Below, in pieces: positions 28,768-36,918 of a stretch of 64,000 nucleotides of DNA. The stretch covers positions 434,001 through 498,000 of the forward strand of contig JACGCN010000012.1 in the NCBI GenBank assembly GCA_014905825.1, given 5' to 3'. Numbering within the stretch: position 1 is the first letter of the stretch; each line of letters starts with the position of its first letter. The translations under genes were made by a program, and so were the position numbers. A model generated the notes under the pieces. The model searched no databases, was not told where the DNA came from, and worked only from the letters and a program-made list of their open reading frames with translations. The DNA is from Lyophyllum atratum (Eukaryota; Basidiomycota; Agaricomycetes; Agaricales; Lyophyllaceae).

Positions 28768-28893
28768 AGACTGGACGCTTATATACCCTGATTTGGACTT
28801 GGATCAGAGTGGACTTTTGGACATTGATATGTACACCCGGACATTGACTACACTGCACAAATATTTCGGTTGCGGCTCCTCCCCCTCATCCCA

Positions 28894-28946
28894 GGAAGTC
28901 TGATCGGCTGGGTGGCCAGTTCACGCACAATGTTCGCGAACATGTC
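28894..28946 (+). repeat. left arm of a ~650-bp inverted repeat pair
   Basis: GGAAGTCTGATCGGCTGGG..GTTCGCGAACATGTC, related in inverted orientation to 29494-29545. The two arms share CTGATCGGCTGGG and GCGAACATGTC exactly, with mismatches between. Confidence 0.6.
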
Positions 28947-29493
28947 ACCTGATAAACATAACATACGTACGCATTCCCACGCCATGTGTCAGCGGGTCTG
29001 AGCACGTCGACACCATCGCCAACGGCGTCAAAGCTTGCGCCGAAGCTGTCAAGGACCATGTCCTCCGCAGGGCGCTTTGGCGCGTACATCTTTGGCCGTC
29101 TCACTGCATATAATCCGCTTTTTCCTTGGTCTGTCGTGTGCATAAGCTTCACATGGGTGCCCAGGCCTACTTCACCGGCCTCGAGCTCGTTGCAGAAGAG
29201 ATATAATGTGAAGGAATTTGGTTAGCGTGGACACATCAAGTGCGGTTGCAAGCAGAGGATGTCTGCTAAGGATGGCAGCAAGTGCCTCGAGTGAAAGATC
29301 AGCCGGCATATGTAAGAATGCATTGATTGAGTGGTGTTAAGTACAGGGAACATTCGTCATTGTCTAGCTTGGGCGGTCGTCGTCGTTCTCGATGGTGAAG
29401 ACCACCGTGAGTGAACAATAGCGTGCTTGCTTACCCGCTGTTGCCAAACAGTGCATGGACCCGCTGAGTCAGGTGGCCTGGGCCAGTTCGGCG

Positions 29494-29545
29494 GACATGT
29501 TCGCGGACTGGTCCGCGAACGTTCCTCCCAGCCGATCAGTTGTCC
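29494..29545 (-). repeat. right arm of the inverted repeat pair
   Basis: The reverse complement reads GGACAACTGATCGGCTGGG..GCGAACATGTC. The sequence between the arms shows no gene I can support. It could be a degraded miniature transposon; no target duplication was found. Confidence 0.6.
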
Positions 29546-29705
29546 TCCCTCATCCTCACAAGTGTTGACGCACGTGGCAACTCGTAAGATTTCACGACAA
29601 ACACGGTAACACTGAAGCAGAGTAGTCTCGTGCCCGACGTTACAGATTAGGCAATGACTCGTGAGAATTCATCCGTCGGCGGAACCTCCGAATGACAAGT
29701 CATGC

Positions 29706-29755
29706 CCTATAACGTCTGGTGCATTTCGCCCTGCCAACCCCCCATCTAGTCACAT
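29706..29755 (+). repeat. left terminal inverted repeat
   Basis: Starts CCTATAACGTCTGGTGCA and includes AACCCCCCATCTAGTCACAT. Pairs with 36638-36686. Confidence 0.8.
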
Positions 29756-29831
29756 ATGTCACAAAAGCCCACGTTTTTCAATTCACGTGCTGTGAAAACG
29801 CGAGACGCGTCTGTTTGTTTACCTCAACTTG

Positions 29832-29863
29832 AACCGCGTTTTGTCTCGAGACAAAACGCGGTT
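29832..29863. promoter_or_regulatory. 32-bp perfect palindrome upstream of the RecQ-like gene
   Basis: The half site AACCGCGTTTTGTCTC is followed immediately by its exact reverse complement, with no spacer. It lies about 98 bp before the helicase ATG and about 76 bp inside the left TIR. It could be a protein-binding operator, a subterminal transposase site or a cruciform-forming sequence. Confidence 0.85.
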
Positions 29864-29960
29864 TGTTTAATGGCGCGTCCAACCACGTGCAATCAACGAA
29901 GACTACCGCCCTGAGCCCTGAGACTTGAACGCTAAGCCCGGCCGAGCGCTATCATCCCCC

Positions 29961-32862
29961 ATGTCACACGCACGTCAAACTACCAAATCCTACCAAATCC
30001 GGGAGAATGCTCGGCAAGAAGCGCTGAGAAAGAAGGACTACTCTTCTGAGCAGACACGTCTCAAGCTCCAGACCCTTTTTCGCGAGCGATTCGGCAAGGA
30101 CCCATACCAGTGGCAGGTCGATGTCACGGAGGCCCTTCTGCTCGGCTTGGATTGTGTTGTCATTGCGGGGACCGGCGCGGGAAAGACGATGCCCTTCATG
30201 ATGCCTCTGCTGCTGGACAAGGACAAGAGCATCTTGATTATCTCACCTCTAAAAGTTCTGCAGGCAGATCAGGTATGGGATTGTCCATTATTGTCATAGA
30301 CTCGAGCTCACACTCATGATCTCGGTGACAGGCCGAACGCTTTGAGGTCATGGAGCTGTCTGCGGCCGCGGTTAATGGCGATACCTGGAGTGCGGACTTA
30401 CAGCGGGTCAGTCTAGCTGACACATTTTTTCTTTCCCAACCGCTCACCATGATTCTAACTTGTGCGCCAGGATCTCGAGCAGAACAAGTACCAGGGTGTC
30501 CTCACCTCCCCCGAGATGTGCTTAGAGCACGAGGCGTTTCGAAAAATCGTAGCTAGCCCGGCTTTCTCAGACAGGGTCTGTGCTGTCGTTGTCGATGAGG
30601 CACATTGTATCTCTCAATGGGGTGGCGATTTCCGCAAGAATTACGGTGTGCTGCAGAAGCTGCGGGGTCTTTTCCCGCCGAATATCCCATTTCTTGCGAC
30701 CTCGGCTACTCTACCACCAGATGCACTACGAGAAGTTCGTGCGAGCCTTGCAATCGATTCCGACAGCTCGTTTTTCTTGAATCTGGGCAACGACCGGCCT
30801 AATATCACATATTCTGCACAGAGCATGAAGTCTTCTTCCGACTTTAATGCTCTCCGCCCACTTCTGTCTCAGAGCATAAACCCGACAAGTCACGACAACC
30901 TCATCAAGACCATCGTCTTCATGAATACCATTCCTTCAACTCAGATAGCCCAACATACGATACGATCATGGTTCCCTCGACAATTGCGCAAATTTGTCGA
31001 TTGCGTTCATGCACGACGGTCCCCTAAAGCTAAAAGACGGTCTATGCGGCGATTCCGACAAGGAAAAACAAGGATATTGGTGGCTACAGAGGTGGCGGGC
31101 ATGGTAAGTTATATTAAAATGCTTCTCTTTGACATGTACTGATCTGTGTTTCTTCAGGGGGCCGACATTCCTGACATTGTGCAGGTCATTCAATTTGGGA
31201 TACCCTCCTCGTTATCTGTCTGGATACAGCGTGCCGGGCGCGCTGGACGCTCGCCTGAAATCAACGCTCGAGCTATACTGTTGTACGAAGAATCAATGTT
31301 CAAACGCAAGCGCCGCCGACGAACGAAACCGGCCCCGGGGGCATTTGAGGAGGGTTCGGATGCTGATCCTGGGATTGGACATGAATCTGAGGTTGAAGAT
31401 GGATTAGGTTTAGAGGAAGGGGCCATGGACGAGATGGAGGTCGATGACCACGGTGAGGATAATCAGGGTGAGGATGACGAGGGACCCAGCGACGAAGAAG
31501 ATGACGGCAAGGAATGGGGGAAGAAGGTGGAAGAGAACCTGCGGCGATGGATCGAAACTGCTCATTGTCGGCGTGACATCGCGGATGAGTATTTTGATAA
31601 CCCGCCGGAACGCAAACGTGAGTTTTTCTTCCCTAGTTGAGTCACTTTTCGTAATCGTTCCTCTCATAGATCCAACTGGACCATGCTGCGACAATTGCGC
31701 GGTGGACTACCGATTGCAATCTCCCAAGTCCATGCTCCAGCGCCCATCTACCCCAGAGCGGCCGACGACTCCTCCTGGCAGCGTGCACAGCACTCCGTCA
31801 AAATCCACGAATGTACACGGGAAACGGCCAATGCAGTCGCATGAAGATTACCTTCCAGCAAAGCGTCGAGGGGACCACCTCAAGGATGCTCGAGCTGCGC
31901 TTGAAGCCTGGCGCTTCGACGTGAAGCGGAATCGTTACACCCCGAGCCCGTTCACTGCTGCCACCATCCTTCCTGACCCTGTTATCACGACTCTCGCCTC
32001 TAACGGCGTTGGTTCTGTCGATGATATCCCCGTTCTGCTCAAAGCGACTGTCTGGCCGCTTGTGCATCGGCATGGACAAGAAGTCTTAGCCGTCCTGCGT
32101 CAAATCGATGCTGAAACCATCGGCCGACGTGAAGAAGCAAAACGAGCGAAAAAGGATGAGCAACAGCGAGCAACGGAGGCGCGACGACACGAGAAACGGC
32201 TGCGTGACGAGCAGGAGCGCAAGGAACGACAGGTTGAGAAGGATAGGAAGCGTGCAGAGACTCAGGCACGGAAGGAGGCAGAGAACGCCGAGAAGAAGCG
32301 CTTGAAGGATGCTGCCAGTGTTGCGAAGAAGCAAGCTGCAGCTGCACAACAGCTACTTCGACGGTCAACTAAGGCGCTTCGTGGGCTCCCTCTTGGAGGC
32401 TCATCGGTATTCAATGTCAGTCCTCAAACACCATTTCCGCAGACCCAATACCAGATGCTCGAGTCATCCCCAGTCACGCCCGCTCTATCGCGGCTCGGCC
32501 ACAGTCAACAGGTAGGCCCGTCCGAAAACTTAATTCCCACTTGACTAATTATCCATTAGACTTTTTCCATGTATGATATGTCTCCGATTATAGGCAACGA
32601 CGATGTCGATATGATGCCAAACTTCGAATCCCCATCGCAATCACGTACTGCTCCCGCTTCTCGTGCGGCTCCTCTGCCCCCTCGCCCTCGTCCACGCCCC
32701 AGGAAACGTCAGGCAGACATTACTGAACCGCCGCCTTCAATACCTTCGAGCTCTAACTCCGAAATCCCGGCTCCTCCGCCTCCACCTCCTCGCCCTCGTC
32801 CACGCCCGAGGAAACGTCCCCCAGACTTGACCAAGCCTCTGCCTTTGGACCTGATCACCTAA
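29961..32862 (+). CDS. RecQ-like DNA helicase (874 aa, six exons)
   Basis: Exons 29961-30272, 30332-30406, 30471-31103, 31158-31617, 31670-32511 and 32560-32862 sum to 2625 nt, an open frame. Superfamily 2 motifs are in order: Walker A GTGAGKT (about residues 70-76), DEAH (about 171-174), the RecQ-type QWGGDFR, ATSAT, VATEVAGMGADIPD and QRAGRAGR (about 363-370). An acidic insert follows, then a zinc-site remnant (CRRDIADEYF..CCDNC), a Lys/Arg/Glu-rich coiled coil (about residues 600-690) and Pro/Arg-rich repeats (PPRPRPRPRKR twice). No RQC winged helix or HRDC was recognised. The start was chosen as the first in-frame ATG. The gene faces the DUF6589 gene tail-to-tail. The role in transposition is inferred only from context; a lineage-expanded cellular RecQ paralogue is the alternative. 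Confidence 0.9.
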
Positions 32863-35800
32863 TCCGACAGCCCTTGGCCCTCATCACTCCCACTCGCTTC
32901 ATCCTCTCCCCAACGTTCCACCTTCGATCGCTTGAAGGTCCGACCGTCGACCCACTTCTTCAGTACGGTACCACGTTGCACCTTCAATGATCCCTCTAGA
33001 ATTAAATCCTCTGCTTTATCCTCCTTGCGAATTTTTCTCCCTGTCAGACATTTTGTGTGATAACCAGATGTACGGTATGATTTGTGAAGACCTGAAACAT
33101 CTTTTTCTCTTTTGGGGACCGTGTGCTTTTTACCCCGGGTAAGCGTTCCAAATTCTGTTTCGATGTGTGCTGTGACTGCTCTAATGACATGGATAGCAGG
33201 GTGGAGTTTCTTCAAATACTCCCACTTGATATTTGGCCCTTCCGACCGGTACGTGACCTTTATGTCCTTGATATTGTGTTCCTGAGCTTTATCCACAGCG
33301 CACCAGTCTGTTGGCTTTCCCGAGAAGTTCATCACCCAGCAGTGATGCCGCACAAACTCGCTATGGATTTAGGTAAGTATCCGACGACTGTGCAATGCCG
33401 AAATGTACATACCTGACCTCAGCTGGCCACTCGCGATGCAGACCCTGCAGTAATTCAAGAGTCTCGTTTGCATAATTACCGTTACCGCCTCCCACGAAAC
33501 GAAAGAACAGTGTCGGTAAGAAGCTCTCCATCAAGCCAACGTCTCCGTGCCGTATTGCCTGATCAAGAACAATGTACTGCAGGATGTCACGGTTCCACAT
33601 GACAACCTGTCGTTTTTGCTCGTCCATGGATGCACCAGCTTTGGTTTCTTGATCCATATCGTCGAGCGCTTCGCTGGAGGCATGATGTCGCACGATTTCG
33701 GCTGCAAGTTTTGCAAGCTTTTCGGGACTACATTTTCTAAGTTCACCCAGTGTTTCTACGCCCCCGACCAACAACCAATCTTCGCGGAGGTGCGCTTCAG
33801 CAACATGATACAAAGCCTCCTCCAAATCATGGTGAAATGGCCCCTGGGTCATGATCTTCGTCAAGCCCTTCCGTGTGAGGAGCTCGAACGCTTGTCTCAA
33901 GCCGCGGCCTCGTGAAGTGCCTAAGTACTGCTTGTGGAGTGAGTTTGCGAATGCCATTTGAAGGTGGAGCCATCCGAACGCGAGCACCATGAAATCGAGC
34001 CTTTCGTAAGAGTTTTCATCTTCTGCGCGGAACTTAAACAGGCCACGAAGGCGATCCACGGTAAGCTGGTCACCAACCCATGCAACAACTTTTTGCATCG
34101 CTAACTTCATCTTCTCGCCAGGACTTTGTTATGCTCCGGCGTAATGTTGGTGTATTCGTTGAATATACGCGTAGGGATTCTAAGTAGTTAGTCAAAGTAT
34201 TTAGAATCTTAATGAATCCAAATCCAATTTGTAAGTAAAAGTCGTCCTAAAGACCTAAAAGCCAAGTAAACGCGGCGTTGGTTTGAGGATATCAGCGCGA
34301 AGCAATGATATACGTGCCCAAAGTAACCCTTAACAATAGCGCTTGGCAATATTGTTAAGTTCAACGGCGCGGATGCAAGAATTCTTAGATTCTTCAAGTG
34401 AAACTTAGCTCACACAAATGTAATGGGGTAAAAAGGTAAGTTCTATTCATGCTAATACTACGGTTTATATACTATCTAAGCCTCGGTCTCGGGCATACCT
34501 TGTCCGAGTCCGAACACGCGTTGTGCGTCCTTTACATCGCGCGTTTGCCTCGAGTTCGGGGATCTCGGCGTGTTCAACGCGTTTACCACGAGTTCGGCAA
34601 TTCCCCGAACTTTGGTTTGTTTATTTGTTACCGGCATTCAGGCGAACCGAGTCCGATATTTGGCATCGGTCTGTTTGGTTCGGTCTTCTCGGCATCATCT
34701 ATGTAGTGGGCAAGGCTCGTTACCTCGAGACGAGTTCAATACATGTAAAAACTGAAGTATTTATTTAACGTAAGGTTTTCTGAAGTCATATGAATGATAG
34801 TACAATAGAAACAGAATTGAAAGAGGGGAAAACTTAGTAAGAGTTTTGTATAGAAGCTGGAGGTAAGTGCTGTAAGTAACTTTAGTAGCTATACTAGGGC
34901 CGTAGTACGCTATACCACAACAGACTTTTCCAGCCAAGTTGTCCAAACCATTCATCGATCAAACGCTCGTGGTCTTCGTAGCTCGCCTCGGGGATATTAA
35001 CGGTTCCACGTAGATATTGGAGTGTGATATGGTCTGGACCAGAAGGGAGCTGATTGACAGGTGGGGGAGCCTTTAATGCTTGGCTGTCTCTCCCTTCGTA
35101 TGTCTTGAGCTCGAAGTCCGGGGCATCCAGAAGGAAGCGCAGGACCTGGTACTCCGTGTGAGTCATGATTTGAGGGTAAGCCTCTTGCGCAAGGTCGAAG
35201 ATTTCGATTTCGGTCAGTGGCTTCTTCAGCCCCTCGGCGCGATGATTCTTTAGGTCCTGATTGACTTGTTCGGACAGGGGTGGAGCGTCAGGCTTGATGT
35301 ATACTGTTGCAGCAGTTCCGTTCCCGAACTCCCCTTTATTGTCAAGCCGTTGTGAGAAGACACGGAAGGGGATGGTAACATTGTCATCAGAGATCACCCA
35401 TGCATGGTGTTCCATTGCCGTTTTCACTTTTTCCATACAGTGCTTCGAGATTCGGCCAACAACATTTGCCGTCCATTTATGGCTCATGGTGAGTGCCATT
35501 GCATGCAATGTGTCGAAACCTTTTGCTAATATACCGCGGAACTTTAGATAGATTGCTAGGAGCTTTTGCAGTCGGCAACGATGATGTGATCTCGAATACG
35601 AGAGCATTGAAAGTATTGTGAGGACAATCTGTCGTTCCGTGAGTTCAGATTTTCCTAATTAAAGAACTGCTGGTGCGCACCTTTTCAGGACTTTTTTCAG
35701 TGTTCCTGATATGTTGACTCCGCCGACTCGCCATCTTTTGAAACAGCCTGAAGCATGATGGTGCCGCCGCCTCCACATCTTTCTGCATCCCCTCGAAGCC

Positions 35801-36391
35801 GGTGCTTGTCAATGTTTCGGCTTGAACATCATCACCCGCTGGCGACTTCAAGTGCGGAGCCAGCAGTTCCAGCTCCCTGTCAACAACTTCTTCTACACAG
35901 TCAAGTGCAAATGCCTTCATGGTGGGAGCCGCACCGCGCGGATGCTTCTTTTTTGATCCTGGTGTTCGTGGGGGCTTCAACCATCGACGTAGGATCCCGG
36001 GAAGCTCTTGGCTGTTCATAAGTGCAGCCCGCTCGTATCGCACTTTCCCTTCTTGAGTACAGCTCTCGTCACCCCAGCTTAGCGCGTCCAAAAAAATTGG
36101 TAAGTTGATTCCTACGCTGTCCATGAAGTGAAGTGTTTGAGTGACCTTCATTGCTAGATCTTGTTCCTCGAGGCGCTGACGTATTGAGGCTGTCCGGCGT
36201 ATCTGGATCGAGGGTCCAGCAGGCTCTTCATCCTCGCTGTCCGATACTATTTCCGGTGATGTTGGCTCATCTTCATATTCAGAATCTTCATCAGAGCTCT
36301 GCAGTTCATTGCCTGCATAATCCCTGTCCTGGAACAGGTCATCCCCGTTGGTGTCGGCCATGCTTGGAGGAGGTATAGCAGGAGGAGGCAT
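32859..36391 (-). pseudogene. DUF6589 protein gene, interrupted by a solo LTR
   Basis: Exon 1 is 36391-35681, the second coding stretch 35628-33413 (interrupted at 34922-34127) and exon 3 33360-32859. Without the LTR and one TSD copy these sum to 2628 nt, an 875-aa frame that joins QLGWKS to PGEKMKLAMQKVV. Conserved blocks include LSMLSYSRSHHRCRLQKLLA, LTMSHKWTANVVGRIS, WVISDDNVTIPFRVFSQRLD, VAWVGDQLTVDRLRGL, FGWLHLQMAFANSLHKQYLG, LLPTLFFRFVGGGNGNY and KAQEHNIKDIKVTYRSEGP. This is the DUF6589 family of fungi, whose function is not known to me. Spaced acidic residues (SDDN, GDQLTVD, QEHNIKD) are compatible with an RNase H-fold nuclease, but this is conjecture. As it stands, translation would stop inside the LTR. 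Confidence 0.85.
34127..34922 (+). mobile_element. solo LTR (796 bp) inside the DUF6589 gene
   Basis: It starts TGTTATGCTCCGGCG and ends GCTATACCACAACA, and is flanked by the direct repeat GACTT (34122-34126 and 34923-34927). AT-rich ends and a middle with repeated CGAGTTCGGG/CGAGTCCGA words contrast with the host gene. It has no coding capacity. It is probably the product of LTR-LTR recombination of a retrotransposon with long LTRs; the family is unknown and unrelated to the copia and gypsy elements here. The orientation given is arbitrary. Confidence 0.85.
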
Positions 36392-36637
36392 ATAATTGAA
36401 ATTTTAAATAATCTATTTGACCCGCTCGATCATCATATGTCTCAGTCCCGTTATGACTGGCAAAAAAATGGTCAACTTATAAAATGAGATATTGGACATG
36501 TAGGACATGTTGGACACGCCAATAGCATACACAGCGAAGGTAGGAACATGGTGTACTGGGAGGACATGATAAACTACGCGTCGTCTGTACATCGCGAGTA
36601 GGCGTGATATGCGGCGTGATGTGCGTGATATGTCACG

Positions 36638-36686
36638 ATGTGACCAGATGGGGGGTTCGGCGTGCCAAGTGCACCAGACGTTATGG
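36638..36686 (-). repeat. right terminal inverted repeat
   Basis: The reverse complement reads CCATAACGTCTGGTGCACTT and includes AACCCCCCATCTGGTCACAT. Just inside it, 36602-36637 has GCGTGATATG/GCGTGATGTG short repeats, possibly subterminal binding sites. Confidence 0.8.
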
Positions 36687-36918
36687 TGCAATCAGAGCAC
36701 GACTGCTGTCGAGATCAGTGAAAATTCTCACGACGGTCGCACCATATACGGATGGGAACGAGACTAGAAGCAGAGGTAAAACTTAGGCTATCGCTAAACG
36801 CACAAAAACACATGCGCAAGTTGGAACGTAGAAGAAACTGTTCGGACCTTGGGTCATCGAGGCATGCCATGGGTAAGTATCATCACTTCCATAAACAAGG
36901 TACACAGTCAGCATGATT

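Follow-up and report, generated by a model that had tools for sequence, protein, structure and literature searches.

A helicase-bearing DNA transposon of Lyophyllum atratum, probably of the AcademH kind, with DUF6589 as its probable transposase

We analyzed a 64,000-nucleotide stretch of the genome of the agaric Lyophyllum atratum (contig JACGCN010000012.1, positions 434,001 to 498,000), referred to here as the window, in which a gene for a RecQ-like helicase lies beside a gene of the DUF6589 family (PF20231). Both genes are carried by a 7144-bp element at positions 29623-36766 of the window, which is flanked by a 9-bp target duplication and missing from a matching empty site. This element is, with high probability, a cut-and-paste-type DNA transposon of the AcademH kind, and DUF6589 is very probably its transposase.

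Borders of the element and of its relatives

We placed the borders at 29623 and 36766 because an empty site on contig C61 (L057) joins both window flanks around only one GAAGCAGAG, and the same 9 bp stand beside both ends of the element as a perfectly matching pair (29614-29622 and 36767-36775). The element starts with TAGTCTCGTGCCC from 29623 and closes with GGGAACGAGACTA up to 36766, giving it TAG...CTA ends. When the left flank was used as a query, similarity to C61 stopped at about 29622 and a truncated copy on C1 began to match there, its first bases being the same TAGTCTC as the left end of the window element. Imperfect terminal repeats occupy 29623-29762 (forward strand, outer 13 bp TAGTCTCGTGCCC) and 36627-36766 (reverse strand, outer 13 bp, read inward, TAGTCTCGTTCCC); these 140-bp ends align with 97 of 157 columns identical and a score of 72, whereas none of 200 base shuffles scored above 4. 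The initial annotation had drawn the borders at a pair of inverted repeats of about 50 bp. Those repeats are real, with 53-nt arms that are 83% complementary, at 29703-29755 (forward) and 36638-36690 (reverse), but they are subterminal, beginning at positions 81 and 77 from the ends set by the GAAGCAGAG duplication and the C61 empty site. They are possibly binding sites. A perfect 32-bp palindrome lies within the left end (29832-29863), and a near copy of it is found at C100:137830-137868. Outside the element, the left flank from 28891 to 29547 corresponds to C2:1488174-1488830 at 98% and is not in the C61 counterpart, which points to a further insertion adjoining the element.

A search for both ends covered 12 places with large elements, leaving out those on C79, C76, C87, C78, C68, C130, C71 and C116, and located both ends at seven of the 12. 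Target duplications are 9 bp long in the window (GAAGCAGAG) and on C97 (TGCGCGTCT), C20 (TGATGTAAC), C13 (CTCGTTACT) and C64 (AATGCTGCC), and 10 bp long on C95 (AGATCGACAT) and C108 (ACTGGCATGC), these last two found by targeted search and by eye. At the other five places (C73, C74, C57:326k, C75 and C57:67k, the last searched in part) both ends were not found. Under a single end-pairing rule, fixed after the first ends had been seen, none of 42 pairs of ends from different loci was accepted, compared with hits at 5 of 7 when ends came from the same locus; two additional loci, L065 and L066, gave no such hit. The pattern TAGDCTCGTGACCANCCG, with at most one mismatch, occurs 63 times in the genome and its reversed control 0 times. 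In three short copies, two TAGDCTCGTGACCANCCG-type ends stand about 740 bp apart, and all three have a perfect 9-bp duplication. In total, ten units have both ends, of the type TAG...CTA, that is 5'-TA..TA-3', and the duplication, varied in sequence, is 9 bp in eight of them and 10 bp in two. Since the short copies are made up of the two termini of a C13-like element and lack its middle, and one pair of them is 98.2% identical, their sequences suggest recent movement in trans.

Continuous empty sites were found for three of the five elements examined: the window element on C61, the C20 element on C1 and the C97 element on C86, C81 and C61, where the flank is itself repeated. None was found for C13 and C64. 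The duplication, the empty site and the recurring copies bear out the initial view of a mobile DNA unit; RecQ-DUF6589 pairs do recur in this genome with the same kind of ends, duplications and empty sites, though not with the repeat borders first proposed.

Other end-like sequences were seen near these elements. TAGTCTCGTGCCC occurs about 55 bp outside the right duplication of the C108 element (L033 3606, C108:1595509), and TAGTCTCGACACC close outside the C57:326k element (L065 8292). A variant end, TAGACTCGTGACCAGCCC, is present at 13 places in the genome, possibly the mark of another non-autonomous family. IMG/VR contained neither an exact match to the end pattern nor a relative of the DUF6589 protein P0130.

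The same ends and duplications bear on whether the element could be a KolobokH, from the fungal Kolobok lineage that also encodes RecQ. KolobokH resembles it in being fungal and in combining a DDD/E transposase with RecQ, but Kolobok elements duplicate the 4-bp TTAA and have 5'-RR..YY-3' ends (PMC9587614), whereas all ten units here have varied 9-10-bp duplications and 5'-TA..TA-3' ends. As duplication length and ends both fail, KolobokH was rejected and is a very improbable identity.

The RecQ and DUF6589 genes as a pair

The RecQ-like helicase gene of the window (29961-32862, forward strand) is modeled with six exons and GT-AG introns, and its spliced frame of 874 amino acids (aa), free of internal stops, contains Walker A GTGAGKT, DEAH and motif VI QRAGRAGR. 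A profile scan matched Pfam DEAD and Helicase_C in this frame, and RecQ, WRN and BLM chains of the PDB are among the solved relatives of the window frame and its C97 relative. The DUF6589 gene (32859-36391, reverse strand, starting at the first ATG of its frame) encodes the probable transposase and contains PF20231 profile positions 3-98, 104-334 and 333-410 in order. The two genes are convergent, and their stop codons share 2 bp. Spacing of 205-250 bp between repeats and start codons had been annotated, and we measured 205 bp from the left subterminal repeat to the RecQ ATG at 29961 and about 247 bp from the right one to the first ATG of the DUF6589 frame at about 36391. The claim that these are the only two genes between the repeats holds as far as both are present and no third was found between the arms among the 8 of 16 listed frames of more than 100 aa that were scanned against Pfam.

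The initial annotation missed a solo long terminal repeat (LTR) inside the DUF6589 gene. This 796-bp insert (34127-34922, TGTT...AACA) separates PF20231 profile positions 98 and 104, and spans 34122-34927 with its flanking 5-bp duplication GACTT. Two copies of the same LTR, listed at 100% identity, lie about 8.9 kb apart on C104; related LTR pairs about 9 kb apart were seen on C104, C119, C66, C140 and C103. The helicase frame is intact, but because the DUF6589 gene is interrupted the window copy is no complete unit as it stands.

At least 40 stretches match PF20231 in the 64.8-Mb genome, grouping into 21 loci (a lower bound), and 17 of the 21 have a RecQ relative at most 5 kb away, where about 1% would be expected. 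This count used 64 RecQ-relative places in the genome, and the 21 loci are partly non-independent, with close copies on C73 and C116, two on C75 and one on C57, and on C68 and C130. The loci with no RecQ relative within 5 kb (C76, C68, C130 and C71) are candidates for decayed, split or helicase-free elements. Twelve of the 17 pairs are convergent and five divergent (C13, C64, C57:326k and two on C75). Across the nine loci with both genes in the DNA examined, the pairwise DUF6589 distances track those of RecQ with a correlation of r 0.933, a value reached by 0 of 5000 permutations, with the closer pairs (C13, C64, C57; C73, C74) carrying much of the signal. DUF6589 identity drops to 18%, yet the pair persists and so do, where found, the end type and duplication length, which argues for a functional pair rather than a chance passenger.

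In the opposite arrangement it would be RecQ that moves, for instance as a subtelomeric helicase gene, with DUF6589 as a passenger or host gene. Subtelomeric families of RecQ helicases are known from fungi, among them Agaricus bisporus var. burnettii (PMC7473861), but the pair co-diverges, gene order varies by lineage while end type and duplication stay constant, and the transposase-like fold belongs to DUF6589 and not to RecQ. We give this reading almost no weight.

Two loci show unusual arrangements of the genes. On C75, two RecQ+DUF6589 copies are joined by a perfect palindrome (661000-667664; L066 1-6665) whose 3326-nt arms are separated by 13 nt, and at this sequence a third copy, on C57, seems to have lost its RecQ side; the palindrome is either an assembly artefact or a real event. 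On C79 (402428-409192, L017), one DUF6589 gene lies between two RecQ relatives of opposite orientation, and an inverted repeat of 127 nt at 100% reaches the end of the stretch examined.

Conserved residues and predicted fold of DUF6589

Conservation was counted in an alignment (A1) of 60 rows, drawn from 185 listed DUF6589 relatives (51 of 65 from one search and 9 of 120 from the other; the searches returned 65 and 170 relatives). The named relatives among those listed come from mushrooms and their kin, Arthromyces, Amanita, Coprinopsis and Mycena among them, and many others are unnamed metagenome proteins. The motifs SDDN, GDQLTVD and QEHNIKD, picked out in the initial annotation, sit on conserved family positions. 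In P0130 numbering, and all on the reverse strand, the first conserved Asp is D328 in SDDN (35383-35385), an Asp in 45 of the 47 rows with a residue there; the second is D488 in GDQL (34069-34071; 56/59); a conserved His is H523 (33964-33966; 57/57); and the proposed third catalytic residue is the Glu E789 in QEHN (33279-33281; 44/44). D785, four residues ahead of E789, is likewise conserved in 44/44.

Structure prediction supports a fit of DUF6589 to the RNase H-fold transposases. The top fold match of the predicted model is Hermes, a hAT transposase, and ISCth4 is also among the matches; nothing reached E 0.001 or better in Foldseek against the PDB or in a structural search of BFVD, and a sequence search of the PDB with the DUF6589 profile gave no match. 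As in Hermes, a large helical region separates the second Asp of the model from the Glu, and a Hermes/P/RAG-like architecture is predicted. Overall, the earlier suggestion that DUF6589 is the transposase of the RecQ-bearing element is very probably correct.

The elements have discrete ends, a 9-10-bp staggered-cut signature, deleted copies at new sites and a co-inherited helicase. In a possible cut-and-paste mechanism, DUF6589 would bind the element ends, perhaps at the subterminal repeats, and its putative RNase H-fold site (D, D, E) would cut the element free by DDE catalysis. The ends would then be joined to the target at staggered positions 9-10 bp apart, with repair yielding the duplication. 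RecQ may accompany the transposase as a helper and perhaps unwind DNA at the element ends, at the target or at the gap left for repair; the short internally deleted copies would have been moved in trans.

DUF6589, a Pfam family of unknown function, gains a testable identity as the probable transposase of helicase-bearing transposons. If this is true, DUF6589 genes can be annotated as mobile DNA, with ends that can be found through TAG...CTA and 9-10-bp duplications, and, since transposase and helicase co-diverge, the reason for the element's need of a RecQ helicase becomes directly testable.

Comparison with known transposon systems

Hermes is the top fold match, but having a fold in common does not establish that DUF6589 is a hAT member. 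The usual hAT duplication is 8 bp, and 5-7 bp in some groups (PMC12730594), against 9-10 bp in 10/10 units here, and hAT was rejected on this difference; the hAT domain is also absent from the best 25 of the 30 Pfam families shown for DUF6589 proteins. KDZ (Kyakuja-Dileera-Zisupton) elements occur in agarics and were rejected in the same way, as their duplications are 7 or 8 bp (PMC12730594). Among the best 25 of 30 Pfam families for the 60 DUF6589 members (E up to 1), KDZ does not appear, and DUF6589 is the only family matched by more than one member. The L. atratum genome itself contains 109 stretches matching KDZ and 9 matching Mutator-like elements (MULE).

A divergent Mutator-like (MuDR) element with an acquired RecQ gene would accord with the presence of ISCth4, which is akin to MuDR, among the fold matches and with the fully conserved His after the second Asp. 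The duplications, too, fall inside the 4-10 bp stated for MuDR and IS256 (PMC10045372). The DUF6589 sequence, however, has no clear profile similarity to MULE proteins (hhalign probability 2.8% against an alignment of 28 of 81 fungal ones), MULE is not among the best 25 of 30 Pfam families for the 60 members, and the C/DxxH motif of MULE, placed between the second D and the E, is lacking, the residue three positions before the His being E in 45, G in 9, Q in 2 and K in 1 of 57 rows and not C or D. On these three points MULE was set aside as very unlikely.

DUF6589 and RecQ might instead form a superfamily of their own, apart from Academ, in which a separately evolved RNase H-fold transposase gained a RecQ gene and shares the 9-10-bp duplication by chance. 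Such a lineage would have a Hermes/RAG-like transposase with a helical insertion and a fixed RecQ partner, and would have flipped its gene order while keeping ends and duplication. The standing of DUF6589 as the sole family, among the best 25 of 30 Pfam families, matched by more than one member and the lack of clear profile similarity to the fungal MULE alignment favor this, as does the literature, in which we found nothing naming DUF6589 ('PF20231' gave one unrelated optics paper; Repbase and subscription papers were outside the search). Yet helicase, transposase, 9-or-10-bp duplication and fungal host together are the AcademH combination, and two independent lineages sharing it would be a coincidence, so we consider both the separate origin and the lineage so pictured improbable. 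A link between DUF6589 and AcademH may exist in Repbase or the subscription literature.

AcademH is reportedly a lineage of the Academ superfamily (Kojima 2020, Mob DNA 11:15). Its duplications of 9 or 10 bp are set against 3 or 4 bp for AcademX, a difference attributed to helicase versus nuclease (PMC10045372). Low copy numbers are described for it in Basidiomycota, Ascomycota and Mucoromycota, and the helicases of AcademH, KolobokH and Helitron are said to have DEAD and Helicase_C domains (PMC10799480). Putative non-autonomous Academ elements have been described in the agaric Marasmius oreades (PMC8290104); in the available part of PMC12730594, RecQ, DUF6589 and Academ do not occur. The elements studied here are alike in having a helicase beside the transposase (RecQ-like in the window and at 17 of 21 DUF6589 loci), 9-10-bp duplications in all ten units with both ends, helicase domains DEAD and Helicase_C, and a basidiomycete host with low copy number (21 loci, a lower bound, in 64.8 Mb); DUF6589 is also a probable DDD/E transposase, the kind that AcademH encodes. 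The comparison is by published description and not by transposase or terminal sequence, and no differing feature was found among those so compared. Because every AcademH feature compared is present, we regard the window element as very probably AcademH. The unit had been thought undescribed, but a helicase-encoding fungal lineage with 9- or 10-bp duplications is in print as AcademH; the element most likely belongs to this known group, and the useful new part is a likely identity for DUF6589.
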